From assembly GCF_024359545.1 (NCBI RefSeq), contig NZ_JAKQZG010000018.1:1-60013 (forward strand): a stretch of 60,013 bases of DNA. The letters run 5' to 3'. Positions 8,344 to 45,736 of this stretch are shown piece after piece; the stretch's first letter is position 1, and each line of letters opens with the position of its first letter. A model generated the notes under the pieces. That model did not search any database, was not told the origin of the DNA, and was given only the letters and a program-made list of their open reading frames with translations. The position numbers and the translations under genes were made by a program. Source of the stretch: Jiella marina (GTDB taxonomy: Bacteria > Pseudomonadota > Alphaproteobacteria > Rhizobiales > Rhizobiaceae).

Positions 8344-9243
8344 ATGCCATCCAAACCTCAGAAATTCGATGTCCACCAGGAGATCACCAACCGCATTGCC
8401 GAGGCGATCGAAACCGCGGGCGAATTCCAGCTTCCTTGGATCAGGTCCGGCGGCGGCCTGACGCGTCCCGTCAACGTCGCATCGAAGAATACCTATAACG
8501 GCGTTAATATCCTCAGCCTCTGGATTTCTGCGATCCAATCCGAATATCCGTCCAATCTCTGGGGCACCTACCGGCAATGGCAGGAGAAGGGATGTCAGGT
8601 CCGCAAGGGCGAAAAAGGCTCCCTCGTGGTTTTCTACAAGCGCTACACGGTCGAGGCCGCAGGCGATGACGAAAACGACGATGGCGAGCGTCTTGTCGCC
8701 CGGGCCAGTTGGGTATTCAACGCCGCGCAAGTCGAGGGCTTCTCGATTGAGACGCCGGATATTCCCGAGGCAGCCGTATTCGATCCCTTGGCGCGTGCTG
8801 AAGCCTTTGCGCAGGCGACTGGAGCCGTCATCCAGGAAACCGGCGACAGCGCTTGTTATCTTCCCGGCGACGATCTGATCCGTCTACCGGAACGGCGCCG
8901 CTTCACCGGCACCGACACCATGAGTGCCGGGGAGAGCTTCTATGCCGTGCTCTGCCATGAACTGGTCCACTGGTCCGGTGCAAAGAGCCGGCTGGACCGC
9001 AATCTTGCCCCACGCTTTGGCAGCGAGGCCTACGCGATGGAGGAACTGGTGGCCGAACTTGGTTCCGCCTTCCTTTGTGCGGAACTCGGCATCACGCCAG
9101 AACCGCGCACCGATCACGCTTGCTACATCAAGACCTGGCTTGAGGTTCTGAAAAACGACAACAAAGCGATTTTCTCGGCGGCCTCCAAGGCATCCGAAGC
9201 CGCGAACTGGTTGATCGCCCACGAGGTGGAGGCGGGCGCGTGA
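8344..9243 (+). CDS. ardC: ArdC-type antirestriction protein
   Basis: This is a 299-residue, full-length protein. The N-terminal domain (about 5-130) is the ArdC ssDNA-binding fold (QLPWIRSGGG, TYNGVNILSLW, WGTYRQWQEKG, VRKGEKGS). The C-terminal domain is a zincin-like metallopeptidase with HELVH at 205-209 and a downstream acidic helix EELVAELGSAFLCAELG. ArdC proteins protect incoming single-stranded DNA from host restriction during conjugation. It fits the mobilization context and appears intact although the neighbouring tra genes are decayed. The start has the GGAG-type site AAAGGAGAACGAC upstream. Confidence 0.92.
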   Translation: MPSKPQKFDVHQEITNRIAEAIETAGEFQLPWIRSGGGLTRPVNVASKNTYNGVNILSLWISAIQSEYPSNLWGTYRQWQEKGCQVRKGEKGSLVVFYKRYTVEAAGDDENDDGERLVARASWVFNAAQVEGFSIETPDIPEAAVFDPLARAEAFAQATGAVIQETGDSACYLPGDDLIRLPERRRFTGTDTMSAGESFYAVLCHELVHWSGAKSRLDRNLAPRFGSEAYAMEELVAELGSAFLCAELGITPEPRTDHACYIKTWLEVLKNDNKAIFSAASKASEAANWLIAHEVEAGA

Positions 9244-9366
9244 GCGCCCGTCACCCCCTTTTAGAAAGTTCGTCGCGCTCGCCTTCGGCTCGCACGTCGC
9301 CCTGCCGATAGCTCGTGAGATTGAATCTCGAATTTCGGAATGGAGCGCCTGATCGGTCCCACGAAC

Positions 9367-9660
9367 TTACGGCTCCAGCAGCCGTTCCCAATCCCGACTT
9401 GCTCGGGGCAGCCGGAGCACGAACACGTCGTTTGCCCGGATTGTGTAGATGATCAGATGCGCCCGATAGGGGTGAATGCGGACCGGCGGCGTGATCTCGC
9501 GGCGCTCTCGTGCCATCTGCGGATTTTCGGCAATCAGCGATAGCGTATGCAAGAGGCCGGCCTGGTACTTTTCCGCCTGACCCTCGCCGAATTGCAGCGC
9601 GCCTTCCACGTAGATGTCGTAGAAATCCTGCTCCGCCAACGCCGAGAGCTTATAGATCAT
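9367..9660 (-). CDS. parE: ParE/RelE-family toxin
   Basis: This is a 97-residue protein of the usual family length. It begins MIYKLSALAEQDFYDIYVE and contains the REITPPVRIHPYRAHLIIYTI strand region and a C-terminal VLRLPRASRDWERLL, all typical of ParE toxins. ParE-type toxins act on gyrase, RelE-type ones on ribosome-bound mRNA; the ParD-type partner favours ParE. It overlaps the antitoxin gene by 11 bp. Such pairs stabilise mobile elements, which fits this location. Confidence 0.9.
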   Translation of the reverse strand: MIYKLSALAEQDFYDIYVEGALQFGEGQAEKYQAGLLHTLSLIAENPQMARERREITPPVRIHPYRAHLIIYTIRANDVFVLRLPRASRDWERLLEP

Positions 9661-9907
9661 TCTCGTTCTTCTGGCGGTACCGCGACCGCGCTTCGGCCAT
9701 CAATTCATCCGGACCTTTGTCGCTCTCGCCGCTGGCGATCGCCTCATCGACCATCTTCTGAAGTTGTGCGATTTGCGCGGCTCGCTCCTGATCGCGGCGG
9801 ATCAGGTCGCGGATATAGTCGCTCGTATTGCCGTAGCGGCCGGATTTCGTCTGCGCTTCGACCCAGCTCCGCATCGGATCGGGCAGGGACACGTTCATTG
9901 TTGCCAT
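9650..9907 (-). CDS. parD: ParD-family antitoxin
   Basis: This is an 85-residue protein with start ATG 9907 behind GGAGG; the ATG at 9922 lies upstream of that site. The N-terminal ribbon-helix-helix (MNVSLPDPMRSWVEAQ, then NTSDYIRDLIRRD) is typical of ParD. The charged C-terminal tail would wrap the toxin. It probably represses its own operon through the repeat at 9932-9956. It is translationally coupled to the toxin. Confidence 0.9.
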   Translation of the reverse strand: MATMNVSLPDPMRSWVEAQTKSGRYGNTSDYIRDLIRRDQERAAQIAQLQKMVDEAIASGESDKGPDELMAEARSRYRQKNENDL

Positions 9908-9931
9908 TTTCAGCACCTCCAAACCTCATTA

Positions 9932-9956
9932 TGGCACCAAATGGCAAAAATTGCCA
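9932..9956. promoter_or_regulatory. Likely ParD operator
   Basis: TGGCA at 9932 is followed by the palindrome TGGCAAAAATTGCCA at 9942-9956, some 35 bp upstream of parD. Repeated short palindromes next to the start are the usual target of ribbon-helix-helix antitoxins. Confidence 0.45.
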
Positions 9957-10035
9957 AAAAAATTCTGTGGGGGTGGTGTTGGGGCGCGGCGGCTAATGGG
10001 ATGTTGAAAGCTTCGTTTCTTGCTAATGCCCGAAC

Positions 10036-10713
10036 TCACGCAGCCATCGTTCGGCCGTCCGTGATGTCATGGACACGGCACCATTCCGGCAATGTCAGGT
10101 CCATGTCGTCACCGCTATGGCGGTTGAAGAATTGCGGATCATCAAAATACGAGCCGACATAGATGACCGGCGCCCGGAATAGCCGCTGGTAGATCACTGT
10201 GCCGGGAATTTCTTCCAGCGTGTAATTCAGCGAGCGGGCAAAGATTTTGTCCCGGTCAGGGGTGAAACCCTGCGCTTCCTGGCGGGTCGCGGCCCGCTCG
10301 GTGTAGTCGGAGCAGATGCCATCAATGTAGGCTTTGACGGCCGGGTTGCCCTGATAGAGTCCGCGAACCCGACGCTCGATCCTGTCGAACTCCGGCGTTT
10401 TGAGATCGTTCCAGACCGTGACGGCCACATGATCGAAGGCGGCATCGAGGATCGGGCGACTCTTGCGCAGCCAGCGCGCTGCACTCGCCCGGCAGGTCTC
10501 GACTGCCTCGTCCCAGAGGGGATCGTCTCGGAGCGCGAAATTATGTGCATCGAGCGTATCGCAGAGGATCAGCCGCACCGAGCGAAACCGGCTTGCCGTT
10601 GCCTGAACCAGTTCCTTGAAAGCCCGCCCATGCATGGCGTCGATACAGCCGCAGATCGGCATGATGCAGCGATCCGTGCCGGTGAGATGGGCGGGGACAT
10701 CAATCCGAAACAT
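10036..10713 (-). CDS. tRNA-dependent cyclodipeptide synthase-like protein
   Basis: This is a 225-residue protein, the family's usual size. Start ATG 10713 follows a GGGAGGTGG site; the ORF extends upstream without a good start. The segment SLNYTLEEIP (161-170) matches the AlbC-type motif holding the catalytic Tyr and Glu (Tyr164, Glu168), and VIYVG (Tyr185) matches the later Tyr. CDPSs use aminoacyl-tRNAs to make cyclic dipeptides through a Ser nucleophile in a GxS motif near the N-terminus. Here that region reads PICGCID, with Cys21 where Ser is expected. It is coupled to an XRE gene. Family assignment is fairly good; the activity is uncertain. Confidence 0.65.
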   Translation of the reverse strand: MFRIDVPAHLTGTDRCIMPICGCIDAMHGRAFKELVQATASRFRSVRLILCDTLDAHNFALRDDPLWDEAVETCRASAARWLRKSRPILDAAFDHVAVTVWNDLKTPEFDRIERRVRGLYQGNPAVKAYIDGICSDYTERAATRQEAQGFTPDRDKIFARSLNYTLEEIPGTVIYQRLFRAPVIYVGSYFDDPQFFNRHSGDDMDLTLPEWCRVHDITDGRTMAA

Positions 10714-11326
10714 CGCCACCTCCCACCATCTGGCCATTTCGCCACCAGTACTCGAACTGGCGGCGCATGACCTTGGCATGTACCGCCGACTTCATTACGA
10801 CGAAGTTGTTCCCGGCCGTGCCGGGCACATGCTGCATCGTCTTGTCGCCGTAGATCACGCAGATTTCCGAGCCGGAGAAGTAATCCTCCGGTATCCAGCG
10901 ATAATCGGCGAGATCGCCGGCAATGACCGTATTTCCCGCGCAGATCGTCGAACGGAACCTGTAACCGGCTTTCCGCATGTCCTGCAGCTTCTGCGATACG
11001 GCTGCGCTCGATCGCCGGTCGTCGGCGCAGTGGAACAGGACTTCCCCACCGGGCGGCACGGTGTGCTCCACATCGGCGAGGACCTCAAGATAGTCGTCAT
11101 AAGTGGTGAGGACGAAGTCGCGTTTTTCGACGCCGCTCGGCGTGATGAAGATGCCCTGTTCACTGAAACAAGTCTCGATCCGGCGCAACGTCCGTGCATC
11201 CGGCTCGCCGCGTTCGGCTTCGAGATTGGCCACGGTGGACTTCGCGAGTCCAGCTTTCTCAGCCAGTTCAGCTTGGCTCCAGTCAAGAAAACCACGCGCG
11301 GCTCTGATCTTTTCTGCGTTTAACAT
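10700..11326 (-). CDS. XRE regulator with PLD-like C-terminal domain
   Basis: This is a 208-residue protein. An N-terminal Cro/C1 HTH lies at about 4-58 (FLDWSQAELAEKAGLAKSTVANLEAE). The C-terminal 140 residues (VPPGGEVLFHCADD, ADYRWIPEDYF, MKSAVHAKVMRRQFEYWWRNG) look like a catalytically degenerate phospholipase D-like ligand domain, a judgement from pattern only. It overlaps the CDPS-like gene by 14 bp, so it probably regulates it. A good promoter and a palindrome lie upstream at 11366-11413. Confidence 0.75.
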   Translation of the reverse strand: MLNAEKIRAARGFLDWSQAELAEKAGLAKSTVANLEAERGEPDARTLRRIETCFSEQGIFITPSGVEKRDFVLTTYDDYLEVLADVEHTVPPGGEVLFHCADDRRSSAAVSQKLQDMRKAGYRFRSTICAGNTVIAGDLADYRWIPEDYFSGSEICVIYGDKTMQHVPGTAGNNFVVMKSAVHAKVMRRQFEYWWRNGQMVGGGDVSD

Positions 11327-11365
11327 CGTCTAAAATATCAATCTGTAAATCAAAATCTGCTTTAT

Positions 11366-11413
11366 ATTATCAAAGAAATCATAGAAATTGTCAATGTTAA
11401 TCCAATTTTAACA
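11366..11413 (-). promoter_or_regulatory. Promoter and palindromic operator of the XRE-CDPS pair
   Basis: On the minus strand TTGACA (11389-11394) is followed after 17 bp by GATAAT (11366-11371), a near-consensus sigma-70 promoter 40 bp upstream of the XRE start. Just upstream of the -35 box is the inverted repeat TGTTAA-n7-TTAACA (11395-11413), a plausible autoregulatory site. Confidence 0.6.
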
Positions 11414-11472
11414 TAATACATCTAAAACGGACCCATTCTGGTTCAATAATTTCGCTATGTATGAGGTTTGCT

Positions 11473-11892
11473 ATGAAGATTTTGAAGGAAACGTTTTTCG
11501 AGCGCCTGCGCAACCGCCTGCCGGCCAACGACGCCCGCCGAGCCATCAAGGCTTTCCGTCGGGCCAAGCACCGGCTCGACATCGATTACATGACCGTCAA
11601 AGAGCTGTCGGAACTGCGCGAACGCTACCGCACCTCGGCAATGCTCGCGTGCCGGGCCGTGAAAGAGTGGGAGGTGCGCCATGCGGTTCGCCGCATGCAG
11701 GACGTCTACCGGGATCGCGAACGTCAGATCCTTTATGCCCAAGCCCGCGAGGCCGTCTCCATCTATCGCGATATCAAGCAGGACTATGTCGACTTTTACG
11801 AGATCGCGATGCATCAGGTCGGCGTGCCGGGTCGTGGGCAGCCATCGAAAGGCGTGTGGTACCCGCCGCAATGCGACCGGAATGGCCTTTGA
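11473..11892 (+). CDS. Hypothetical protein, basic and helical
   Basis: This is a 139-residue protein from ATG 11473; an in-frame ATG at 11461 is possible. It is Arg-rich and almost entirely helical, with repeated RxxxR spacing (RERYRTSAMLACRAVKEWEVRHAVRRMQ), so a coiled-coil or nucleic-acid-binding role is plausible. It is not recognised. It is convergent with the relaxase gene and divergent from the XRE-CDPS pair, whose AT-rich gap it shares. Confidence 0.6.
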   Translation: MKILKETFFERLRNRLPANDARRAIKAFRRAKHRLDIDYMTVKELSELRERYRTSAMLACRAVKEWEVRHAVRRMQDVYRDRERQILYAQAREAVSIYRDIKQDYVDFYEIAMHQVGVPGRGQPSKGVWYPPQCDRNGL

Positions 11893-11926
11893 AACGTCTG
11901 CGCAAGCCAAGCTGTGGTTCAACCGC

Positions 11927-13207
11927 CTACAGGCTTGGGCCTGATCGCTTCCGTCGTCTCTGAATTTCGGAGGCATGGACGCCCTTGGCCTCATCCGACT
12001 GAAAGGACCTGTATCGTGTGAGGTTACGGCGCAGGTCGGCAAGCTTCGTCGCCTGCACGTCCCGGAGTTCCTTAATACGTCTTTGGAGGATTGCGCGCTT
12101 CTCCCTTTGGCGGTCGATCAGAGCCTGGCGTTCGGCCTCGTGCCGGACTGCCGAGGTTTGAGCTTCAGCTTCCGCTTGACGCCGCAAATCCTGAAAGCGT
12201 CCGATTATTCTGTGCCATAGCCCTTTCAGGCCCTTCGGCAGCCGGGCGGCCCTTGTCTGGGCTTCCTCCTGTCGTTCTCGTTCGAGCCGATCTTCCAGCA
12301 TCTTTCGCGCCGCGCGGTGCGCTTCGGTCATTTGATCGCGTGCAGCGTAGAGCGGTGCCGCCTTCCGCGCGAAGCCTTGGCGTGCGGTCTCGACGTGAGC
12401 ACGCAAGGCCGGGGTCATCGCGTTGCTGATGACCTTCTTCGTAGCCGCGACGCCACGGAATCCTTCCGCCGATCCCAACCGTACGCGAACGGCCTTCGTC
12501 TTCTCGTTCAGAAGGCGCGGGAGAGCATGAATGTCGCCGTCATGCGTCAGAACCACGAAGTCACGCCGGTCGCCCTTGGCGAGGTAAAGGCCACGCTCTT
12601 CGAGCGCATGCGAAAACGCCTTGATCCCATCCGATCGCTGCCAGCAGGATTGTACCTGCGCCTTCAGCCAGCGCGGATCGAGACCGGTTCGCTTGGATTG
12701 CTGCCATTCTGCCAGGGTGAAATTGGTCGGATTCCGAGCATTGGCATTCTCGATCCCGGCCGGCATCTCCCACCCGTGCGTCAGATAGAGGTCCCGTGCG
12801 ACCCCCATCAGCCGCGTCTTGAAGAAGGGGAGGTGCCGGGCGGTCATGCTTTCGGCGTCGATGCGGCTCCACACACAGTGCGCATGTCGCCGGCCTTCTT
12901 TTTCATGGAAGATGACGGCGCGCGGCTGCCCCTCCAGGCCCAGCCGTGTTTCGATCGTATCAATCGCATCGATGAAGTCCGAAACGGGCAAGCGTGCTTC
13001 GGCTGGTGGATTGAGGCTCAGCGAAAAGAGATACTGGCGGCAACGCGTGCCGCGGGAGATGGCTTCTGCTTCCTTGAACGCGTCGCGCAATGTCTCGCCG
13101 GCAAACCCGCGCATCTCATGGACGGCGACATGTTCGTTGTCGTCGGTCCGCATAAGATGGGTAGCGAGGTTGCCCCCGCTACCGCGTTGTGAGCCTTTGA
13201 GTATCAT
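11927..13207 (-). CDS. MobA/VirD2-family relaxase
   Basis: This is a 426-residue protein. The relaxase domain occupies about 1-260: MILKGSQRGSGGNLATHLM carries the N-terminal motif, and the metal-binding histidine triad is seen at H101 with HAH at 108-110. The C-terminal 160 residues are a charged, Arg/Glu/Gln-rich coiled coil. Relaxases nick oriT and pilot the single strand into the recipient. It overlaps mobC (ATGA, 13204-13207), a standard mobC-mobA arrangement. With no intact coupling protein or secretion genes visible, the element would need a helper. Confidence 0.9.
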   Translation of the reverse strand: MILKGSQRGSGGNLATHLMRTDDNEHVAVHEMRGFAGETLRDAFKEAEAISRGTRCRQYLFSLSLNPPAEARLPVSDFIDAIDTIETRLGLEGQPRAVIFHEKEGRRHAHCVWSRIDAESMTARHLPFFKTRLMGVARDLYLTHGWEMPAGIENANARNPTNFTLAEWQQSKRTGLDPRWLKAQVQSCWQRSDGIKAFSHALEERGLYLAKGDRRDFVVLTHDGDIHALPRLLNEKTKAVRVRLGSAEGFRGVAATKKVISNAMTPALRAHVETARQGFARKAAPLYAARDQMTEAHRAARKMLEDRLERERQEEAQTRAARLPKGLKGLWHRIIGRFQDLRRQAEAEAQTSAVRHEAERQALIDRQREKRAILQRRIKELRDVQATKLADLRRNLTRYRSFQSDEAKGVHASEIQRRRKRSGPSL

Positions 13208-13659
13208 GCTCGGCTTCCGGTTTTGAGGCCGAGAGCCGTAATCAGGTGGGCCCTAATCTGTCCGACGTGATCGACGGCTTGCCGCAAGCCGGCTTCGAGG
13301 TCTGGCGTCACGGGCAAGGCGCCGATCCGTGCGGCGCTGGCCAATTCCTTCAGGCTCGCAGAGAGGTCCGAGCGCCCGAGCAGCGCGAGCGCCTTTGCCA
13401 AGGCTTGTCCATCGTCGACGAGGCGACCGCGGCGCCGTCTGGCTGGCGCGCGCAGATCGAGCGCTTTGGTCTTGATGTAGGTCCCTAACGGCAGACCCTC
13501 AGCCGCCGCATGTTGCTCTAGGCGCTGCCGCTCGGATGCCGTCAGGCGGAGCGAAAACGGTGCAAGACGTCTTTTGTGTTGCCGTTTCTTCGCTGGCGCG
13601 CCTGACTTATCGAAAATTTCTCTGAGTGTTTCCCGACCATTCTGTGCATTTACGGACAT
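13204..13659 (-). CDS. mobC: MobC-type relaxosome accessory protein
   Basis: This is a 151-residue basic protein. It has a ribbon-helix-helix-type segment (PFSLRLTASERQRLEQHAAAEGLPLGTYIKTKAL) and a C-terminal helical part (LEAGLRQAVDHVGQIRAHLITAL) typical of MobC. It would bind oriT and help the relaxase. The fragment at 7874-8068 shares the SxRL(T/S)xxER motif, so two copies of this family once existed here. It is translationally coupled to the relaxase. Confidence 0.88.
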   Translation of the reverse strand: MSVNAQNGRETLREIFDKSGAPAKKRQHKRRLAPFSLRLTASERQRLEQHAAAEGLPLGTYIKTKALDLRAPARRRRGRLVDDGQALAKALALLGRSDLSASLKELASAARIGALPVTPDLEAGLRQAVDHVGQIRAHLITALGLKTGSRA

Positions 13660-13702
13660 GGCGGCCTCGGGCCGCGGTCGAAATTCTCGTGCTTCAGAAC
13701 GC

Positions 13703-13739
13703 TATTCCAGTCGGCCAAAACGTCGAACAATTCGTTCGA
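13703..13739. other. oriT-like site upstream of mobC
   Basis: TATTCCA at 13703-13709 is followed at 20-bp spacing by TCGAAC-n5-GTTCGA (13723-13739). It lies about 45 bp upstream of mobC on the minus strand, the normal place for oriT. The layout repeats that at 8112-8150, which supports a conserved recognition element. Confidence 0.55.
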
Positions 13740-13797
13740 ATGCGACCAGTCGCTGCGCGCCATACCTTTGAATATTCGACCCGGAGAGGACGCGACC

Positions 13798-13843
13798 GGT
13801 AGCGGAGGAGGGACTTGAACCCCCGACACGCGGATTATGATTC
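13798..13843. other. Attachment-site copy: 46-bp tRNA-Met 3' fragment
   Basis: These 46 bp are identical to 42217-42262 and in the same orientation. They comprise the 3' half of the elongator tRNA-Met gene, from the anticodon loop to the second base of CCA. The sequence diverges immediately on both sides. Here the fragment has no 5' half, so it is not a gene but the displaced end left by site-specific integration. It is the distal att site of the 28.4-kb element and possibly shared with the mobilizable element to its left. Confidence 0.9.
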
Positions 13844-13860
13844 TTCAACGAAACGTTGAA
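13844..13860. repeat. Inverted repeat adjoining the att core
   Basis: A perfect 7-bp inverted repeat, TTCAACG-AAA-CGTTGAA, abuts the att core on the integrase side. Core-flanking dyads are where tyrosine integrases bind, so this may be a core- or arm-type site. Confidence 0.4.
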
Positions 13861-13925
13861 ATCATTGATCTTCCGCAGGCCATGTCGCGTCCTTGTCGCT
13901 GATACTCAGCCATGGAAAACGCATG

Positions 13926-15116
13926 TCAGGCCAAAAGCAGCCTCTCGGCGGCTGCCAGAGCTTCGGCTTCGTCGGCGGCGGGAAAGAGATGGCCGTAGGT
14001 GTCAAAGGTCATCTGAATCGACGAGTGGCCCATGCGGGTCTGAACGGCTTTCGGCGAGAGTTCGAGACCGCCGTCGGCTTTCGCGTTGATGCACCATGAG
14101 GCGTACCAATGCCGAAGGGCATGCATGCCGGTGTAGCGGGCAGCGAGGATGGGTTTGCCCTCGTCATCACGCTTGCGGGTCTCGATTGTCACGCCGGCCT
14201 TGATTATAGTCGGATGAAGGCCTCGGTTGATGATGTTGCCCAGGCTCTCAACGTTGCCGGCGGAATTCGGAAAGACGAGATCAAGGCGGCTCGGTGGACA
14301 AGCAAGCTTCCATTCCCGCAAAGTGTTCACGACGAGGGGCGTCAGTGGGATCGATCGATGCCCTGCCTCGCTCTTCGGAGCGCCGATCGCGTTGAACCGA
14401 TCGGCGCGCTGGCGAACATGCACCGCGGCCTTGTCGAGATCCACGTCTCGCCAGGGCAGGCCGCGCAGTTCGCTTGCCCGCATGCCGGTGAAGATCGCCG
14501 TGATCAGCAATGGCCGAAATCTGCCCTCTGCGGCCTCCAGGATCGCGCGGACCTCTTCACGCGTCGGAATGTCGACGCCGTATTGCAGGCGCTTCCTCTG
14601 GCGTTTCTCGGAGGATTTCGAGCCGCGCCGCTTCGACATTTCGGAGACGACGTTCCTAACGACGAGGCCCCTCTCCTGCGCATCCGAGAGGATCGACCCA
14701 AGCGAGACCGTCACGCGCTTGACCATGGCCGGCGAGCGGCCATTCTCGCGAAGCGCCTCCTGAAAGGCGCGCACTGCCGGCACGGTGAGCTTGTTCAGCT
14801 TGGTGGCCCCGAGGAAGGGCTCGATATGGATCTGGACATGCTGGCGGTATTGGTCCGTCGTCGAGCGCTCCAGCCCGGCGGCGTCACAGCTCTTCAGCCA
14901 TAGCGTTGCGGCCTCGCGCACGGTGACCGTTTGAGAATCGGCGACGTGGACGCCTTCGCGAACCTCGACGCTCGCCGTCGCGGCGAAGGCGTCCGCTTCC
15001 TTCTTCCGGGCGAAGGTCTTCAGCCGGCGCTTACCGGCCATGTCGGTGTAGTCGACCACCCATGCGGTCTTCTCAGCGCCCTTCGGCGTGGTCCAGGTGC
15101 GGCGACGGACGGACAT
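13926..15116 (-). CDS. int: Tyrosine recombinase/integrase
   Basis: This is a 396-residue protein. The N-terminal arm-binding and SAM-like core-binding domains (about 1-175) are followed by the catalytic domain with the TGMRASELRGLPW Arg box, HALRHWYASW (HxxR) and GHSSIQMTFDTYGH with the nucleophilic Tyr. It lies 82 bp from the att repeat and reads toward it, so it is the integrase of the tRNA-Met element. Its start overlaps the stop of the Arc-like gene (both at 15116), linking its expression to that regulator. Confidence 0.95.
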   Translation of the reverse strand: MSVRRRTWTTPKGAEKTAWVVDYTDMAGKRRLKTFARKKEADAFAATASVEVREGVHVADSQTVTVREAATLWLKSCDAAGLERSTTDQYRQHVQIHIEPFLGATKLNKLTVPAVRAFQEALRENGRSPAMVKRVTVSLGSILSDAQERGLVVRNVVSEMSKRRGSKSSEKRQRKRLQYGVDIPTREEVRAILEAAEGRFRPLLITAIFTGMRASELRGLPWRDVDLDKAAVHVRQRADRFNAIGAPKSEAGHRSIPLTPLVVNTLREWKLACPPSRLDLVFPNSAGNVESLGNIINRGLHPTIIKAGVTIETRKRDDEGKPILAARYTGMHALRHWYASWCINAKADGGLELSPKAVQTRMGHSSIQMTFDTYGHLFPAADEAEALAAAERLLLA

Positions 15117-27314: not shown

Positions 27315-27355
27315 GAAAGCTCGTTTCTGAAACACTTTCATAGTATTCTGTTTCA
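27315..27355 (-). repeat. 41-bp cassette-border repeat, copy 3 (inverted)
   Basis: It is inverted relative to copies 1 and 2. On the minus strand its first three bases are the TGA stop of the serine recombinase gene, paralleling copy 1, which begins at the stop of the HGG-motif gene. Confidence 0.7.
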
Positions 27356-28039
27356 CGCAGCGGGCTGCATCTTCTCCAGTACGCGCTGCACCTGCACCGC
27401 CTGCCACTGGCCACCACGAGCCGTTTTGAAGCTCCTTTCATTCAGGGCTTTGGCGATGGCGGACATGGACGAAATCCCTTCCGAACGAATGTCCTCGATC
27501 ACTGGCGTCAGATCAGCCGCATGCTGCATGGCCTTCTCCTGACGACGGGCGATTGAGACGGCGCGGCCCTTGGTGCTCTCGGCTGCGAGGTTGCTTCGAT
27601 CTCCACCGAGCTTCACGCCTCGCGCCTTTGCAGTGGCAAGCGCATCCTTCGTGCGCCTGGAGATCATCCGACGCTCTTCGTCGGCGACCATGGCCATGAT
27701 CCCCACCGTCAGACGGTTCGCCGTTGGCATGTCGGCCGCGACGAAATCGACACCGGCCTTTTCGAGGCCGAGCAGGAAATGCGCGTCGCGGGACAGGCGA
27801 TCGAGCTTGGCAATGACCAGGGTAGCATTGTGGAGCCGGGCAAGGCGCATGGCCTCAGCGAGCTTCGGGCGATCGTTCTTGCGACCGCTTTCGATCTCGA
27901 CGACTTAGGCGACGAGCTGCCAGTTTCCACCGTTCAGAAAACCCTCGACGGCTCTGCGCTGCGCCTCGACACCGAGACCAGACTGACCCTGCCGTTCGAT
28001 CGAGACCCGGAGGTAGGAAATGAAGCGTCCGTCAGCCAT
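27353..28039 (-). pseudogene. Serine recombinase/resolvase with in-frame stop
   Basis: Read from ATG 28039, the frame gives the resolvase N-terminus ISYLRVS (catalytic Ser) and QSGLGVEAQRRAV. A TAA follows at 27905-27907 after about 44 codons, and the frame then continues as VVEIESGRKNDRP, LVIAKLDRLSRD and a full C-terminal region ending in an HTH-like segment. A single base change (for example GAA to TAA) would explain it. Without readthrough the protein is split and inactive. It abuts cassette repeat 3. Confidence 0.85.
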
Positions 28040-28714: not shown

Positions 28715-31700
28715 TCAGTAGGATCTATAGGCCGACATGATCGCGGTGATCTGCAGCGTGTCCAGCGAATGAGTTTGCGTCGGCGTGATGGCTTGCAGCT
28801 GTTCGGGTCTCAGACTGAGGATGTTGGCTGATGAGAGGCCGGCTATCGCGGTGTTGCTGATCGCGGCGATGTCCGTCGTCGAGAAGGCCGAGAGCTGGCT
28901 GGCCCCGAGCGCAGCGATCTGTGCCGCGCCAAGGCTCGCGACTTGAGCGGGCGTCAGGGCCTCCGCCTGCTGGGCTGTCAGAGCCATGATCATGTCTGGT
29001 GTCAGGCCAGCGATCGCGCTCGGATTGATCGCCGCGATCTGCTCTGCCGAGAGCGACGCGATCTTGTCTGTGCTGAACGTCGCCACCTGGATCGCGTTGA
29101 GCGTGCCCATCTGCGCGGTTGTCAACCCGTGGATCTGCGGGCTGTCCAGCGCCCTGAGTTGATAATAGGACAGGGCCGCAATCTGCGGGCTCGTCATGGA
29201 AGCGATCTGGTCGCCGCGGAGCGCCGCGATTTGGTCGGCGGAAAGCCCGGCGATTGCCGTTGTCTTGATCGCCCCAATGTGGGCGGCGGAAAACGCGGCG
29301 AGGTCTGCGGCACCGAGTGCGGCAATCTGGGTGGAACTCAGCGCACCAACCTGTGCAGGTGAGAAGCTGGTGATTTGAGCTAAGCTAAGAGCCTCGATCT
29401 GAGACGGCATGAGACCTGGAAGCGCTTTCGCGGTCAGGGCTGCAACCTGCGACGTGGTGAGCGCGCCTATCCCACCGGTCGAGAGCGCGCCCAACTGGCC
29501 AGCGCTAAGAGCGGTGATCTGCGCTGTCGTAAGGACCTCCACCTGCGAGGGCGAGAGGATGGCGACTTGGTTTGGCGTCAGTCCGGCGATCTGTGCTGGC
29601 TGAAGGGAGGATATCTGATCGAGGCTGAAGCCGGCGATACGCTCGGCGGGAAGACCGGCGATCGCGGAGCTGGCGAGCGCGGCAATGTGGCTAGACGACA
29701 TTGCCGCGAGAGCGGAGCTGCTAAAGGATGCCACTTGTGCCGCGCTCAGAGCGGCCATCTGCGCCGTCGACAGCTTGGCGATCTGTCCGTCGCTGAGGGC
29801 CGGGATCTGAGTTGTCGTCAGGCCGGCGATCGCCTTCGGACCAATCGCAGCAAGCTGATCCGACGTCAGCGTATTCAGCTTGTCCGCCGAAAGGCCTGAG
29901 ACTTGACCGGCACCGAGCGCACCAATCTGCGTCGTCGACAGGGCGCCAATCTGCGTTTGAGACAGGGAGTTGAGCTGCCCCGCGGTCAACGCCGCCATTT
30001 GGCTGTTCGTCAGTGCCGCGATCTGTTCGGCGACGAGTGTTGCCAATTTCTCTGTGGTCAGGCCGGAGATGGCGCTCGGGCTGAACGCAGCGACGACGGT
30101 AGCAGAGAGGCCCGCCAGCGCATCCACACTCAGGGCCTGGATCTGGGGCGCCGTAAATGCCGCCAATTGCTTTATCGTGAGACTATGGATCCGGTCGGAA
30201 GTAAGGCCCGCGACGTGATCGGGGGTCAGTCCGGCGATGGTCTTCACGCTGATTGAGGTGAACTGGTCCCCCGACAAGGCAGTCAGATGGTCACTTGACA
30301 GCGCGGCCACCTGCATCGCGGTCAGGGCTGCGATCTGGTTGGTCGACAAGGCGCCTATCTGCATCGGCGTAAGGGCGGCGACCTGCGCCGGCGTCAACGC
30401 GGCGATCTGGCTCGGGGTGAAAGCTGCCGATTTCTCGACGCTGAGGGCGGTGATAGCGTCCGGGGAAAGGCTCGACACCGACCCGGTTCCGATCGCTGCG
30501 ATGTCGGAGATTGAAAAGGTCGCCAGATCCGCCGGGCTGAGCGCTCCGATTTGCGCAGCAGTCAGCGCGGCAACCTGTGTTGACGTCAGGGCTTCTGCCT
30601 GCATGGTGGTCAGGCTCGCCACGTGCGAGGCTGTCAGGCCCGCCACCGCCTTGGTGTTGAGCGCGGCAATCTGATCGACCGAGAATGCGGCGATGGATGC
30701 GTCAGACATGGCCGAAAGCTGCACCGCAGTCAGGCCACCGATCTGCGAAACCGACAGGCTCTGGATCTGGGAGGGGGTCAGCCAGGCCGCCTGCGTGCTT
30801 TTCAGCCCAGCAATCTGCGTCGCTGAAAGTGCCACGATCTGGGTCTCGTCGAAATCGGCGATCTTGTCGCCGGAGATACTCGAAAGTGCGCCGACGCCGA
30901 GTGCCGCGATGCCTTCTGGCGCTAGCGCCGCCAATTGGTCGGCGCTCATGGCTTCCACCTGCCGGGGCGTGAGCGATGCGATCTGCGTCGGCAGCAGTGC
31001 TCCGATCTGCGAAAGTGATAGAGCAGCAGTTTGATTGGCTGTCAGGCCTGCGATCGCCTTGGGAGCAAGCGCAGCGATCTGTTCGGGCCCAAGCGAGGAA
31101 AGGCTTTCCGTGGGGAGGACACTGAGTTGAAGTGCGGAGAGCGCGCGTATCTGCAGCGTCGATAGCGCTTCGGCCTGCGCCGGCGTGATGGCTGCAATCT
31201 GCGTCGGCTTCAACGCGGCGATATGGCCGGCTGTTAGGCCGGCGAATTGGTCGAGGCTGAGAGTTGCGACATTGCTTGCGGAGAGTCCGGAGATGGCAAT
31301 CGGATTCATCGCCGCGACATTCGCCCGGGAGAAATGCTCCAGGGTGACCGGGGTGAGGGCAGCGAGCTGCAGCGCTGTCAGGCTGGAGACTTGCGACGAA
31401 CTGAAGGCCTCGGCCTGTGCGGGCGTGAGGGCCGCGACCTGCGCTGCGGTCAGCCCGGCGACGGCGTTGGGTCTCAACGCCCCGATCTGCTCGGCGGATA
31501 GCTCGCCGAGCGCCGGGATGGACAGGGCGCTGACCTGTGCGGCCGTCATGGCGCCGATCTGCCGTGCCGACATAATATCGGCTTGCGTAGCACCGAGGGC
31601 GCCGATCTGAACGGGCTTCAGGGCGGCGACTTGCGCACTTGTCAGAGCAGAGACTTGGTCGAGGGTGAGAGCGGAGATAGTTTGTGGGGCAAGTCCAGCG

Positions 31701-32950
31701 ATGGCGCCGTTGCCGATCGCGGCGATCTTCCCAATTGAGAAGGTCGCGACTTGTTCCGCCGACAGGGTGGCGATCTGAGGCAGGCTCAGGCTCGCGATCT
31801 GCGACGCGTTCAACGCCTCGGCCTGAGCCGGAGTCATTCTTCCGATCTGGGTGGTCGTGAGACCAGGGATGGCCTTGGGATTGATCGCGGTCACCTGCGC
31901 CAGGGAGAAATTGGCAAGGCCCTCGGTGCCCAGTGCGGCGACGTGGACCGCGGCCAAGGCGCCGACTTGGGCGACCGAAAGGCCCTGGATCTGCGCGGAC
32001 GAGAGCGCTCTGACCTGGCTGGCCTTCAGCGCGGCGACTTGGCCGGTTGTCATGGCCCCAAGTTGATCCAGCGTCAGCGCCGCGCTGGACAGCCCGGTGA
32101 TTGATCTCGGGTTAATGGACGCGAAGCCCGTGGTAGAGAAATGCGAGATCTGCTCAGCGCTGAACGCTGCGACCTGCTTGGCCGTGAGGCCCGCGATCTG
32201 CAGTGGCGTGAGAGCTGTGATATGTTCGCTGTTCATCGCGGCGATCTGCGCGCTCGTCAGTCCACCGATCGCGCGCGTGCTGATTGCGGCGACGTGAGAG
32301 CTCGACAACGCGGCGAAGGTCTCCGGCGAAAGCGCTGCAATCTGGCTTGGCCCGAACGCGCGCATCTGGATTGAGCTCAACGCCTGGACCTGCGTGTCCG
32401 TCAGCGCTTTAGCCTGGCCGGCACTCAAGGCCGCGATCTGGGTTGCCGATAGGGCCGCTATCTGATCGCCAGTGAGCGAGGCGACCTTATCACCCGAAAG
32501 ACCCGGCAGCCCGACGACGCTTATCGCAGCGATATCCGCCTGCGAAAAGGTCGCGAGGTCGGCGATACTCAAGGCCGCAATCTGCGTGCGGCCGAGGCTT
32601 GCAATCTGGGCCGGCGTCAAAGCCTCTGCCTGGTCCGTGCTGAGGCCTGCAATCTGCGATCCGCTAAACGCAGCGATCTGGGAGCTTCGCAGGCTGGCGA
32701 TCTTGTCGGCTCCAAGAGCCGCGATCTGATCGGCGGTGAGGCCTGGAATTGCCTTTGCCGAGATCGCAGAAACCTGGGCTTGAGACAAATGAGCGATTCC
32801 ATCGACCGAAACGGCAGCGATCTGTGATGCGTTCAGGGCTCCGACCTCAAGCGGGCTCAGCGCGGTCAGCTCATCAATGCTCCAGCTGGAGACGGTCTTG
32901 GCCGGGATGGCCTTGATCTGGAGAAGGCTCTGAGAGGAGATCGTTGTCAT
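28715..32950 (-). CDS. Giant octapeptide-repeat protein
   Basis: This is a 1411-residue protein. ATG 32950 is chosen because repeats begin soon after it; the frame extends to 33202 with unrelated sequence, and the ribosome-binding site is weak. Nearly the whole protein is about 170 octads of consensus (S/T)-x-x-Q-(I/V)-A-A-L. Marked octads of type NPxAIAGL divide it into alternating blocks of 7 and 10 octads, a 136-residue (408-bp) super-repeat seen about eight times. No signal peptide, membrane segment or known catalytic domain is visible, and charge is low. Ser/Thr N-caps with i, i+3 hydrophobics suggest an alpha solenoid of very short helices. Function unknown; it is flanked by IS remnants. 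Confidence 0.85.
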   Translation of the reverse strand: MTTISSQSLLQIKAIPAKTVSSWSIDELTALSPLEVGALNASQIAAVSVDGIAHLSQAQVSAISAKAIPGLTADQIAALGADKIASLRSSQIAAFSGSQIAGLSTDQAEALTPAQIASLGRTQIAALSIADLATFSQADIAAISVVGLPGLSGDKVASLTGDQIAALSATQIAALSAGQAKALTDTQVQALSSIQMRAFGPSQIAALSPETFAALSSSHVAAISTRAIGGLTSAQIAAMNSEHITALTPLQIAGLTAKQVAAFSAEQISHFSTTGFASINPRSITGLSSAALTLDQLGAMTTGQVAALKASQVRALSSAQIQGLSVAQVGALAAVHVAALGTEGLANFSLAQVTAINPKAIPGLTTTQIGRMTPAQAEALNASQIASLSLPQIATLSAEQVATFSIGKIAAIGNGAIAGLAPQTISALTLDQVSALTSAQVAALKPVQIGALGATQADIMSARQIGAMTAAQVSALSIPALGELSAEQIGALRPNAVAGLTAAQVAALTPAQAEAFSSSQVSSLTALQLAALTPVTLEHFSRANVAAMNPIAISGLSASNVATLSLDQFAGLTAGHIAALKPTQIAAITPAQAEALSTLQIRALSALQLSVLPTESLSSLGPEQIAALAPKAIAGLTANQTAALSLSQIGALLPTQIASLTPRQVEAMSADQLAALAPEGIAALGVGALSSISGDKIADFDETQIVALSATQIAGLKSTQAAWLTPSQIQSLSVSQIGGLTAVQLSAMSDASIAAFSVDQIAALNTKAVAGLTASHVASLTTMQAEALTSTQVAALTAAQIGALSPADLATFSISDIAAIGTGSVSSLSPDAITALSVEKSAAFTPSQIAALTPAQVAALTPMQIGALSTNQIAALTAMQVAALSSDHLTALSGDQFTSISVKTIAGLTPDHVAGLTSDRIHSLTIKQLAAFTAPQIQALSVDALAGLSATVVAAFSPSAISGLTTEKLATLVAEQIAALTNSQMAALTAGQLNSLSQTQIGALSTTQIGALGAGQVSGLSADKLNTLTSDQLAAIGPKAIAGLTTTQIPALSDGQIAKLSTAQMAALSAAQVASFSSSALAAMSSSHIAALASSAIAGLPAERIAGFSLDQISSLQPAQIAGLTPNQVAILSPSQVEVLTTAQITALSAGQLGALSTGGIGALTTSQVAALTAKALPGLMPSQIEALSLAQITSFSPAQVGALSSTQIAALGAADLAAFSAAHIGAIKTTAIAGLSADQIAALRGDQIASMTSPQIAALSYYQLRALDSPQIHGLTTAQMGTLNAIQVATFSTDKIASLSAEQIAAINPSAIAGLTPDMIMALTAQQAEALTPAQVASLGAAQIAALGASQLSAFSTTDIAAISNTAIAGLSSANILSLRPEQLQAITPTQTHSLDTLQITAIMSAYRSY

Positions 32951-42734: not shown

Positions 42735-43451
42735 TTATTGCTGCGCGGCGTCATCCCCGTCGATGTCGCCGGAATCGTCCGGCTGGGCCTGATCGGGCAT
42801 GAAGCGCATGCCGCGGCCGCCGCGCCGGTCGGAGCGGTCGAGCTTGCCGTCGCCATTGCGATCCATGCGCTCGACGAGACCGGAAAGCCGGCGATCGAAC
42901 TCGGCCTGGGTGACTTCACCGTCGCCATTCGCGTCGAGGTCCTGGAAGCGGTCGACCATGCGCTCGCGCATCCGCTCCAGCCAGAGCGTCTGGAACTCCT
43001 CGATGGAGAGCGTGCCATTGTTGTCGGCATCGAAGCGGGCGAGTTGCTGCTGCCTGGCCTGATCGATCTCGTCCTGGGTCAGGCTGCCGTCCTGGTTGAG
43101 ATCGAGCTCCTGCATGCGTTCGTGCATCATCGCGCGCGGTCCGCCGCCTCGGCCGCCCCAGCCGTGAGGTCCCATGCGGCCATGATGCATGCCGTGGCGG
43201 CCTTCGCCCCAGCGCTCGCCATGGCCCCGGCGTTCGCCATGATGGCCGCCGCGGTGGTGCCGGCCTTCGCCGCGTCCGCGCCAACCGTCATCGTCGTCAC
43301 CGCGCCAGTGGGCCTGCTGGACGGGGCGTTCGCGGGCACCGCCGTTCTGGGCCGCATCGTTCTGGGCATTGCCGCTCTGGGCGAAGCTCAGACCACTCCA
43401 GAGGGCGGCGGCAGTGATGGCGATGGTCGAGATGGTCAGGGTCTTTTTCAT
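42735..43451 (-). CDS. Exported EF-hand calcium-binding protein
   Basis: This is a 238-residue protein with a signal peptide (ISTIAITAAALWSGLSFAQ). A His/Gly/Arg-rich middle (about 45-105) is followed by four EF-hand loops: DLNQDGSLTQDE, DADNNGTLSIEE, DANGDGEVTQAE and DRNGDGKLDRSD. It probably binds calcium, and perhaps other metals through the His-rich part, in the periplasm. It is divergent from a two-component gene pair about 220 bp away, which may control it or sense a related signal. Confidence 0.9.
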   Translation of the reverse strand: MKKTLTISTIAITAAALWSGLSFAQSGNAQNDAAQNGGARERPVQQAHWRGDDDDGWRGRGEGRHHRGGHHGERRGHGERWGEGRHGMHHGRMGPHGWGGRGGGPRAMMHERMQELDLNQDGSLTQDEIDQARQQQLARFDADNNGTLSIEEFQTLWLERMRERMVDRFQDLDANGDGEVTQAEFDRRLSGLVERMDRNGDGKLDRSDRRGGRGMRFMPDQAQPDDSGDIDGDDAAQQ

Positions 43452-43673: not shown

Positions 43674-44396
43674 ATGGAAACAAGGCCCCATATCCTCGTC
43701 GTCGACGATCAGCGCGACATTCGCGAGCCGCTTGGCCGGTATCTCGAGAAGCACGGGATGAGGGTGACGCTTGCCGGCAGCGCGGCCGAGGCGCGGGAGG
43801 CCTGCAAGCGCCATTCCGTCGATCTCGTCGTTCTCGACATCATGATGCCGGGCGAAGACGGGCTCTCCCTCTGCCGCTCCTTGCGTGAGAGCGCCAACAT
43901 GCCGGTGATCCTGCTCACTGCCATGGCCGAGGATGCGGACCGGATCGTCGGACTCGAAGTCGGCGCCGACGACTATGTGGTGAAGCCCTTCAATCCGCGC
44001 GAACTGCTCGCGCGAATCAAGGCAGTGCTTCGCCGGGCGACGACGCTGCCGCAATCGATGCAGCCTGTTTCCGAAGACCGAATGGCCTTCGGCGAATGGG
44101 TCTTCGATCTCGCCCGGCGCGAGGTCATGGGCGCTGATGGGGTGGTGGTGCCGCTTTCGACCGCCGAGTTCCGGCTGCTCTCTGCCTTCGTGCAGCGCCC
44201 GGGCATGGTGCTCACCCGCGATCAGCTCCTCGATCTCACCAGCGGACGCGAAGCCCATCCCTTCGACCGCTCCATCGACAACCAGATTTCGCGGCTCAGG
44301 CGCAAGCTGGAGGCCGATCCCAAGAACCCGGAAATCATCAAGACCGTCTGGGGTGGCGGCTATGTCTTTGCCGCTGCCGTGAAGGAGGCCTCGTGA
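43674..44396 (+). CDS. OmpR-family response regulator
   Basis: This is a 240-residue protein. The receiver domain has the acidic pair VVDDQ, the phospho-acceptor Asp in LVVLDIMMP and Lys in VVKPFNP. A C-terminal winged helix (LSTAEFRLLSAFVQRPGMVLTRDQLLDLTSGR) binds DNA. The stop overlaps the kinase start (ATGA, 44393-44396), so the two form a co-translated pair. Confidence 0.95.
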   Translation: METRPHILVVDDQRDIREPLGRYLEKHGMRVTLAGSAAEAREACKRHSVDLVVLDIMMPGEDGLSLCRSLRESANMPVILLTAMAEDADRIVGLEVGADDYVVKPFNPRELLARIKAVLRRATTLPQSMQPVSEDRMAFGEWVFDLARREVMGADGVVVPLSTAEFRLLSAFVQRPGMVLTRDQLLDLTSGREAHPFDRSIDNQISRLRRKLEADPKNPEIIKTVWGGGYVFAAAVKEAS

Positions 44397-45736
44397 GGCG
44401 CCTTCTTCCCCGGAGTCTGGGTGGCCAGTTCGCGACGCTTCTCATCATGGCGCTGCTGTTTGCGCATCTCGTCAGTCTGGCGCTGTTCTTCGACGAACGC
44501 GGCCGCGTGGTGCGGGCGGCCATCCGCTTCGGGGTCGTGGAGAAGGTTTCGACCCTCGTCCAGGTCTTCGACGACACCACGCCGGAACTCGGCCAGCGTC
44601 TGGCGACGGCCCTCAGCAACCGGCGCACGCGCCTCGAGATCGCGGAACGGAGCAGTTTGCCGCCGGACGGCATGAGTGAACGCGAGGAGGAATTCGCCGA
44701 GGAACTCGCCGATGCGCTCTCGGTCGACGAGCATGGCCCCCGCGCCCGCTTCACCGACCGCCCCCCGCGTCGCGATGAGGGCTGGATGCATCGCCACCAT
44801 CGCGCTTTCACCGGTGTCGAGATTTCCATTCCGCTCGCCGGTGGGCGGTGGCTGAATGCGACCTCGGTGGTCAGGGCGCCACCCATCGGGCTCTCCTGGC
44901 CGTGGCTGGTCTCGCTTGGCGTCAGTGCGATTGCGACGCTTCTGGTGGCGGCGCTTCTCGTGCGCCGCATCACCGGGCCGATGCGCGAACTGGCGGCCGC
45001 GGCGGAAAAGATCGGCCGGGGCGAGGCGATCGACCCCGTGCCGGCGAAGGGGCCGAGCGAGATCCGCACCACCGTCGAGGCGTTCAACGTCATGCAGGAG
45101 CGTCTCTCGCGCTTCGTGCGCGACCGCACGCGCATGGTCGCCGCCATCAGCCACGATTTGCGCACGCCGATCACTTCATTGCGGCTGCGTGCGGAATTCA
45201 TCGAGGACGCCGACCTTAAGCGCGACGTCGTCCGCACGCTCGACGAGATGCAGGCGATGGCGGATGCGACCCTGGCCTTCGCGCGCGAGGAGGGCGCGGG
45301 CGAGGCCACGCGCAGCGTCGATGTCGCGGCGCTGATCGACGGCTTCGTGGAGGACATGCGAGGCCTCGGCAAGGATGTCACTTATGAGGGGCCGGAGCGG
45401 CTCGTCTGGCGCTGCCGCCCGGTGAGCCTCAAGCGGGCTCTCGCCAATCTCGTGGAGAACGCCGTGCGCTATGCCGGCGCGGCGCGGATCGGTCTCGTGG
45501 AGGAAGGCGGCGAATTGCGGATCACGGTCGAGGACGACGGACCGGGGATCCCGGCGACGCATCTGGAGGAGGTCTTCGAGCCTTTCGTCCGTGTCGAGAC
45601 CTCGCGCAGCCGCGAGACAGGTGGGGTCGGGCTCGGCCTGTCGATCGCCCGGTCGATCGTGCGCGCCCATGGGGGCGAATTGACCCTGACGAATCGGCAA
45701 ACAGGCGGTCTCGTCGCCACCATCAGCCTGCCTTGA
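44393..45736 (+). CDS. HAMP-domain sensor histidine kinase
   Basis: This is a 447-residue membrane kinase with TM1 at about 14-30 and a periplasmic domain with an Arg/His-rich stretch (DRPPRRDEGWMHRHHRAF). TM2 is at about 163-185, then HAMP, a His box ISHDLRTPITSLRLR, an N box NLVENAVRYA and a G box DDGPGIP. It is the partner of the OmpR-type regulator. The signal is unknown; the neighbouring EF-hand gene and the His-rich periplasmic patch make a metal ion a fair guess. Confidence 0.94.
   Translation: MRRLLPRSLGGQFATLLIMALLFAHLVSLALFFDERGRVVRAAIRFGVVEKVSTLVQVFDDTTPELGQRLATALSNRRTRLEIAERSSLPPDGMSEREEEFAEELADALSVDEHGPRARFTDRPPRRDEGWMHRHHRAFTGVEISIPLAGGRWLNATSVVRAPPIGLSWPWLVSLGVSAIATLLVAALLVRRITGPMRELAAAAEKIGRGEAIDPVPAKGPSEIRTTVEAFNVMQERLSRFVRDRTRMVAAISHDLRTPITSLRLRAEFIEDADLKRDVVRTLDEMQAMADATLAFAREEGAGEATRSVDVAALIDGFVEDMRGLGKDVTYEGPERLVWRCRPVSLKRALANLVENAVRYAGAARIGLVEEGGELRITVEDDGPGIPATHLEEVFEPFVRVETSRSRETGGVGLGLSIARSIVRAHGGELTLTNRQTGGLVATISLP

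Follow-up and report, generated by a model that had tools for sequence, protein, structure and literature searches.

What is encoded by a gene whose product is built almost entirely from one eight-residue repeat, and why do these octads follow a second, longer rhythm of 7 and 10 units? The question is raised by a 60,013-nucleotide stretch of Jiella marina DNA (contig NZ_JAKQZG010000018.1, positions 1 to 60,013, forward strand; hereafter the window), which carries a giant open reading frame (ORF). The analysis indicated that the product is a real and ordered solenoid under selection, belonging to a known repeat family, and we infer a function for it below.

28715..32950, minus strand: giant ALTTAQ-repeat (PF20080) protein, 1411 residues, about 175 octads; from the ORF, the Pfam match (E 7.7e-176) and relatives in the genus

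Tiling of the 1411-residue protein gave 175 octads, one of them partial, along most of the chain, with the consensus S/T-x-x-Q-I/V-A-A-L (glutamine at position 4 in 107/175, leucine at position 8 in 124/175). Landmark octads of the NPxAIAGL type were found at indices 27, 34, 44, 51, 61, 68, 78, 85, 95, 102, 112, 119, 129, 136, 146, 153, 163 and 170, an alternation of 7 and 10 that is unbroken over all 17 spacings; the class was picked by eye, and the degenerate octads 85 (GVGALSSI) and 102 (GTGSVSSL) were assigned to it by position. Further octads with glycine at position 7 occurred between the landmarks. Before the regular zone, the first landmarks (7, 17 and 27) were spaced 10 and 10 octads apart. 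For the octads lacking glutamine at position 4, the Fourier spectrum reached a power of 31.5 at 8.50 octads (17/2); shuffling the octad order 300 times never gave more than 10.6, and the 7/10 pattern is therefore not due to chance. Self-comparison gave its highest identity, 0.374, when the sequence was shifted by 136 residues; shifts of 80 (0.327) and 56 (0.323) came next.

28835..32281, minus strand: zone of regular 7+10 spacing, landmark octads 27 (STRAIGGL) to 170 (SNTAIAGL); from the octad tables
32075..32089, minus strand: truncated octad with a 3-residue deletion (SSAAL); from alignment with 7 relatives and with Jiella pelagia

An earlier description of the window, the first-pass annotation, had already reported that nearly the whole product consists of octads (about 170 by its count), that the landmarks recur after 7, 10, 7 and 10 units, that the first cycles are irregular with two 10-blocks, and that one octad lacks three residues. 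All of this was borne out, as was the 136-residue period that it had proposed to look for by self-comparison. The deletion is real: the octad was whole in 7/7 relatives, and the loss was confined to J. marina among the sequences aligned.

Pfam matched the protein to PF20080, the ALTTAQ repeat, in 52 stretches (569.9 bits against a cut-off of 26.4), and by this match it is a further member of an already catalogued repeat family. The PF20080 model describes a 38-residue stretch, and the Pfam output carries neither a function nor the 7/10 rule. Literature searched for ALTTAQ, PF20080 and typical octad strings gave no function for the repeat. In the PDB, the only strong match of a single-sequence search was 9zem (HeliScrew4, E 9.5e-20), which a profile search detected at 2e-29. 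The 120 residues of HeliScrew4 are made of the same octads as the J. marina protein; unlike the latter, HeliScrew4 is short and, judging from its name, designed, the match being known from name and sequence alone. A literature search for HeliScrew found nothing. The first-pass annotation had known of no characterised family with this layout, and had named a characterised family with known function as the counter-case. As to the family it was mistaken, given PF20080 and the solved octad protein 9zem; as to the function it held within the literature searched, the match being to a catalogued family with no function found.

Jiella is placed in Aurantimonadaceae by NCBI taxonomy, and in Rhizobiaceae by GTDB. 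Matches to PF20080 were found in 29/199 sampled genomes of the GTDB family (that of J. marina included), 6/289 of the class and 25/299 of the phylum. Complete ALTTAQ ORFs in the GTDB family span 778-2639 residues, and frames elsewhere reach about 6400. Within the genus, 7 of 10 genomes carry the gene, again counting J. marina; the six other orthologues are 55-74% identical, most of them full-length and one split by a frameshift. The J. pelagia orthologue (locus L037, 56% identity) goes out of frame near its end, around position 13900 of that locus, through either a sequencing error or a real change. The ratio of nonsynonymous to synonymous substitution rates (dN/dS) was 0.23-0.43 in five orthologue pairs, three of which include the J. 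marina gene, and therefore indicates purifying selection.

Comparison of the relatives suggested where the 7+10 rhythm comes from. In the family group (40 proteins, one of which, L032, is from Thioclava), the best lag was 17 octads in 24 proteins, 10 in 8, 34 in 4, 27 in 3 and 7 in 1. Elsewhere, super-periods of 24 or 31 octads, or no strong super-period, were found; 24 was the best lag in 6 of the 7 proteins of the 24-octad group, where L087 prefers 31 and L086 shows 24, then 7 and 31. Since 17/5 = 3.40, 24/7 = 3.43 and 31/9 = 3.44, these lengths point to one pitch near 3.42 octads. Autocorrelation spectra that use every residue, with no chosen feature, showed a peak at 3.30-3.55 octads among the top three in 46/56 proteins (29/36 in the family, 17/20 outside) versus 95/1120 shuffles, and equally wide control windows placed at 3.0 and 4.0 octads took 0/56. 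The top line of the group mean was 3.42 in the 24-octad group and 3.43 in the 31-octad group, two proteins without a strong super-period had top lines of 3.41 and 3.43, and a Methylomonas relative had 3.43 as its second line. Glycine at position 7 gave a top line of 3.39-3.45 in four groups and of 3.40 in the J. marina protein, the latter equalled in 2/300 shuffles.

Several results weigh against a common pitch. The feature-free spectrum of the J. marina protein is led by 8.49 (power 17.4), 2.42 and 6.97 octads, with 3.42 in fourth place (2.3); the family mean lines at 8.51 and 2.43 outrank 3.38, and windows of equal width around 2.43 and 8.5 take 44/56 and 38/56 proteins. In one group the 3.4 line is outside the top three for 3/7 proteins, and its power is below 1 in 6/7. 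The 95% shuffle maximum of power is 9.5; among 19 listed proteins outside the main group, the 3.4 line lies above it in 8 and below it in 11. The 2.43 and 8.5 lines are read as harmonics of 3.4, the second and the third, which sampling at whole octads has folded back; one of them could instead be the fundamental. Because the 3.42 line is only fourth in the J. marina spectrum, we lowered our confidence slightly, and still regard a shared pitch near 3.4 octads per turn as probable.

A pitch of about 3.42 brings 7, 10, 17, 24 and 31 octads each close to a whole number of turns. Recurrence on the same face of a rod would therefore explain the 7+10 pattern, and rod pitch is the best explanation so far of the two-level period. 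The literature searched held no description of such a pitch rule, few searches having been aimed at it in particular. The weight that the first-pass annotation gave to 136 residues as such is less supported: outside the family, relatives have periods of 192 or 248 residues, or none that is strong, and what they share is the line at about 3.4 octads.

AlphaFold2 models of two stretches of the protein were consistent with a rod.

30047..31066, minus strand: residues 629-968, modelled as alpha-solenoid; mean predicted local distance difference test (pLDDT) 95.2, predicted template modelling score (pTM) 0.85, 10 alignment rows
31691..32950, minus strand: residues 1-420, modelled as alpha-solenoid; pLDDT 92.4, pTM 0.78, 2 alignment rows

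In both models, almost every octad had its own helix, 4-6 residues long. The model of residues 1-420 also had two merged helices of 13-14 residues, and its pLDDT was 58 across the first 10 residues. On these predictions, the protein very probably folds as a long alpha-solenoid rod. The first-pass annotation had proposed a solenoid under selection and suggested structure prediction; the two models and the dN/dS values agree with that part of its claim.

Foldseek searches returned human mesothelin as all 6 matches at E <= 0.001 for residues 629-968 (E 7e-5 to 9e-4, template modelling (TM) score 0.24-0.50), and as 4/5 such matches for residues 1-420. The available part of PMC10035497 describes mesothelin as a right-handed solenoid whose short helices come 2-3 to the circle, in units of 27-37 residues, and calls it homologous to stereocilin and otoancorin. 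Mesothelin is the best natural structural match of both models. Unlike the octad protein, it is a glycosylphosphatidylinositol-anchored human protein with mixed ARM/HEAT units of that length (PMC10035497, same part), and the sequence searches showed no homology of the octad protein to the mesothelin superfamily among the matches listed. This resemblance also has results against it: the top Foldseek match of residues 1-420 is an unrelated designed crystal protein (TM 0.13), the mesothelin TM-scores are only 0.19-0.50 over both models, and mesothelin is not among the best 60 of 64 PDB profile matches (to E 10). It was likewise absent from the 19 matches of the single-sequence search, and 9zem was not among the best 50 Foldseek matches listed for either model.

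We propose the following arrangement. Each octad would form about one short helix, as predicted, with serine or threonine preceding it and, to judge from the pattern, isoleucine or valine and leucine facing the core. The rod would turn every 3.4 octads or so, about 27 residues, as the periodicity across the family suggests. Small-residue octads (A4, G7) would lie on one face, so that their spacing is 7 octads (2.05 turns) or 10 (2.92 turns); alternating 7 and 10 would keep this stripe straight, 17 octads making 5 turns. Most likely, the stripe would serve for packing or docking along the length of the rod, and the protein would act as a long adhesive or matrix rod on the cell surface or outside the cell. 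In some lineages, the neighbours of relatives suggest type I export after cytoplasmic glycosylation by GT41. Taken whole, an ALTTAQ alpha-solenoid rod with a pitch of about 3.4 octads, a landmark stripe and a surface or extracellular role is close to an even call. The wider claim, that ALTTAQ proteins are giant solenoid rods with a geometric 7/10 code (about 3.42 octads per turn) and one unbroken docking stripe on a rod of some tens of nanometres, exported and in many lineages glycosylated by a dedicated GT41, is unlikely as it stands; under it, the 7/10 rule would be to these rods, on a larger scale, what the heptad rule is to coiled coils. Should the pitch rule be true, the super-repeat of a catalogued, apparently unstudied family would translate straight into the geometry of its rods, with the landmark stripe marking the docking places of partners or sister rods. 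Designers of octad solenoids would then have natural examples thousands of residues long, and attention would be drawn to a class of rods whose genes, in several lineages, neighbour those of type I exporters or glycosyltransferases.

The two ends of the protein bear on its destination.

32816..32950, minus strand: N-terminal segment, an MTTISS/MTSI start followed by W-S/T, of a type kept in relatives; from the N-termini of relatives
28718..28753, minus strand: C-terminal tail QITAIMSAYRSY; similar ends (QVAAVIAAYxA type) in relatives of the family; from the C-termini of relatives

The 1411-residue frame starts at the ATG at 32950, and a GTG further upstream would yield 1495 residues; the ATG is favoured because relatives share the MTTISS/MTSI-type start. 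No signal peptide was seen at the N-terminus on inspection by eye, no predictor being run. In some relatives, the C-terminal tail follows a non-octad linker. At the C-termini of L031, L111, L112, L115 and L116, an S/G/E-rich non-octad linker is followed by a conserved hydrophobic tail, e.g. IASIISSYLAV, which looks as if it were a separate signal.

Among the rival explanations, the one that survives best places the protein inside the cell, as a soluble cytoplasmic solenoid or scaffold that binds partners along one face and is never exported. Against it, type I secretion genes adjoin relatives in several lineages: outside the family they neighbour the ALTTAQ gene in 6/19 loci. In the Methylomonas locus, PrtD, HlyD and TolC types all scored above their cut-offs, and RTX repeats (PF00353; 37.7 bits, cut-off 23) are present close to the C-terminus of the ALTTAQ protein itself. 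Five other loci, two from one alphaproteobacterial genus and three from a genus in a different class, have an HlyB-type transporter; the HlyB match was below cut-off in the four tested and came from blastp in the fifth, and HlyD was above cut-off in the four tested. The C-terminal tail, kept even behind non-octad linkers, also argues against a cytoplasmic rod.

Export of the J. marina protein is in turn opposed by its own surroundings. No type I transporter was found in the 20 window ORFs scanned. The HlyD type I adaptor is missing in 3/7 same-genus carriers of the ALTTAQ gene and present in 2/3 non-carriers (all candidates scored; one of the three non-carriers is only 84% complete), and occurs in 18/22 family carriers and 20/22 non-carriers, where up to 25 candidates per genome were scored and absences are less sure. 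With no enrichment in genus or family, the type I system was rejected as a co-occurring partner. The lack of a signal peptide on inspection by eye, the 3/7 carriers and the 4/22 family carriers showing no adaptor favour an intracellular rod; the four include genomes G105 and G177, both 100% complete and with frames of 2143 and 2639 residues. The Pfam matches of the J. marina protein include no RTX family, and its genome encodes a PrtD-like transporter and HlyD on another contig. Judged from these gene contents, export by a type I system is a reasonable guess in some lineages and may or may not apply to the J. marina gene. An exported rod is a tentative reading for this gene, and the intracellular rod a credible yet doubtful one.

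Glycosylation was considered from the neighbours as well. In the family, 16/37 loci (L029's own counted) have a GT41 no more than 4.5 kb from the ALTTAQ gene, with 64-73% identity to the L029 enzyme; some of the loci share a genome, and ten were chosen once the GT41 places were known (9/27 at first, 7/10 later). Little or no upstream sequence was covered for L049 and L051. UDP-galactopyranose mutase is near the ALTTAQ gene in 8 of the 16. FlmG has TPR and GT41 parts. In Caulobacter crescentus, this O-glycosyltransferase acts in the cytoplasm before export, as the available part of PMC7591256 reports, and so provides a precedent for a cytoplasmic enzyme of this kind, one that also suits an intracellular rod. 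Unlike FlmG, whose target is flagellin, the GT41 beside ALTTAQ genes has a putative role, and it is absent beside the J. marina gene. This absence weighs against a glycosylated rod in J. marina: no GT41 match was found anywhere in the window. The GT41 matches of the genome are on contigs C34 and C1, and the same-genus carrier G020 has none; within the sequence covered, 7/7 same-genus loci had neither a GT41 nor a UDP-galactopyranose mutase neighbour.

Two composition measures were compared between proteins with and without a GT41 neighbour. An excess of serine and threonine at octad positions 1-3 did not differ and was dropped (21 vs 39 proteins, p 0.63; a weak test, some rows being mis-phased). 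Whole-protein serine plus threonine was 25.8% with the neighbour and 22.6% without it in the family (17 vs 22, p 0.002, uncorrected for kinship), with p 0.054 in the family minus the window's genus (17 vs 15) and p 0.09 overall (22 vs 37); because no comparison was corrected for kinship, nothing was drawn from this difference. On contig 38 of the J. marina genome (L122, 7970-18038), the PrtD-like and HlyD genes adjoin two large TPR-glycosyltransferase genes, and this cluster could be a secretion-plus-glycosylation operon. The 1321-residue TPR-glycosyltransferase beside the prtD-like gene was rejected as unspecific, being near full-length in 9/10 genomes of the genus, two of them without an ALTTAQ gene. 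ATP-binding cassette (ABC) matches near L033, L061 and L037 were import ATPases; partial ABC matches were seen near L034 and L113.

A second rival holds that 7+10 merely records tandem duplication of a 408-bp unit and is unrelated to rod geometry. The best self-match at 136 residues speaks for it, together with 73-77% self-identity at that shift in L029, L057 and L061. In J. marina, however, the phase holds over 17 spacings at only 37% self-identity, same-genus orthologues of 55-74% identity mostly align end to end, and the line near 3.4 octads is kept in other lineages with other super-periods or none; duplication alone is thus improbable, and rod pitch is preferred. That the models are an AlphaFold artefact of a repetitive sequence, the chain being disordered or beta, is very improbable: AlphaFold2 can give confident yet unrealistic beta-solenoids for repeat proteins (PMC11795689, available part), but two regions with different alignments gave agreeing models, and the structure of a protein built of these octads has been solved (9zem, known here by name and sequence match).

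Other matches of the protein were set aside. CAAP1 (55.4 bits, cut-off 25), which also matches two relatives over similar octads, SAM_3 (26.4 bits, cut-off 22.6) and leucine-rich repeat chains in the PDB profile search (best E 8e-8) were judged compositional, and all NCBIfam matches fell below their own cut-offs. A phage link was rejected, with one phage record at 28% identity over 10% of the query; a viral-contig scan with six peptides only confirmed no relative, and the genome-contig scan, also with six peptides, confirmed two. Loci L092, L098, L109 and L114 (the last picked through its GT41) were set aside for want of a clear ALTTAQ ORF, although L092 does match PF20080, and L059, a copy of the L033 region, was excluded from later counts. 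In one other family (L093-L097), ALTTAQ frames of 2600 to more than 5000 residues had a group line near two octads (2.01) and no strong 3.4 line. Separately, the available part of PMC2275737 reports two Rhizobium leguminosarum proteins of about 180 kDa, with repeats of about 140 residues, upstream of a bacteriocin-type exporter.

Elsewhere in the window, an ArdC-like antirestriction gene, a MobA/VirD2-type relaxase and a tyrosine integrase form a mobile element on the left side (8344-15116). A short N-terminal fragment of a serine recombinase, probably a remnant, lies just downstream of the giant gene (27353-27850). An EF-hand protein is encoded at 42735-43451, next to a paired response regulator and histidine kinase (43674-45736).

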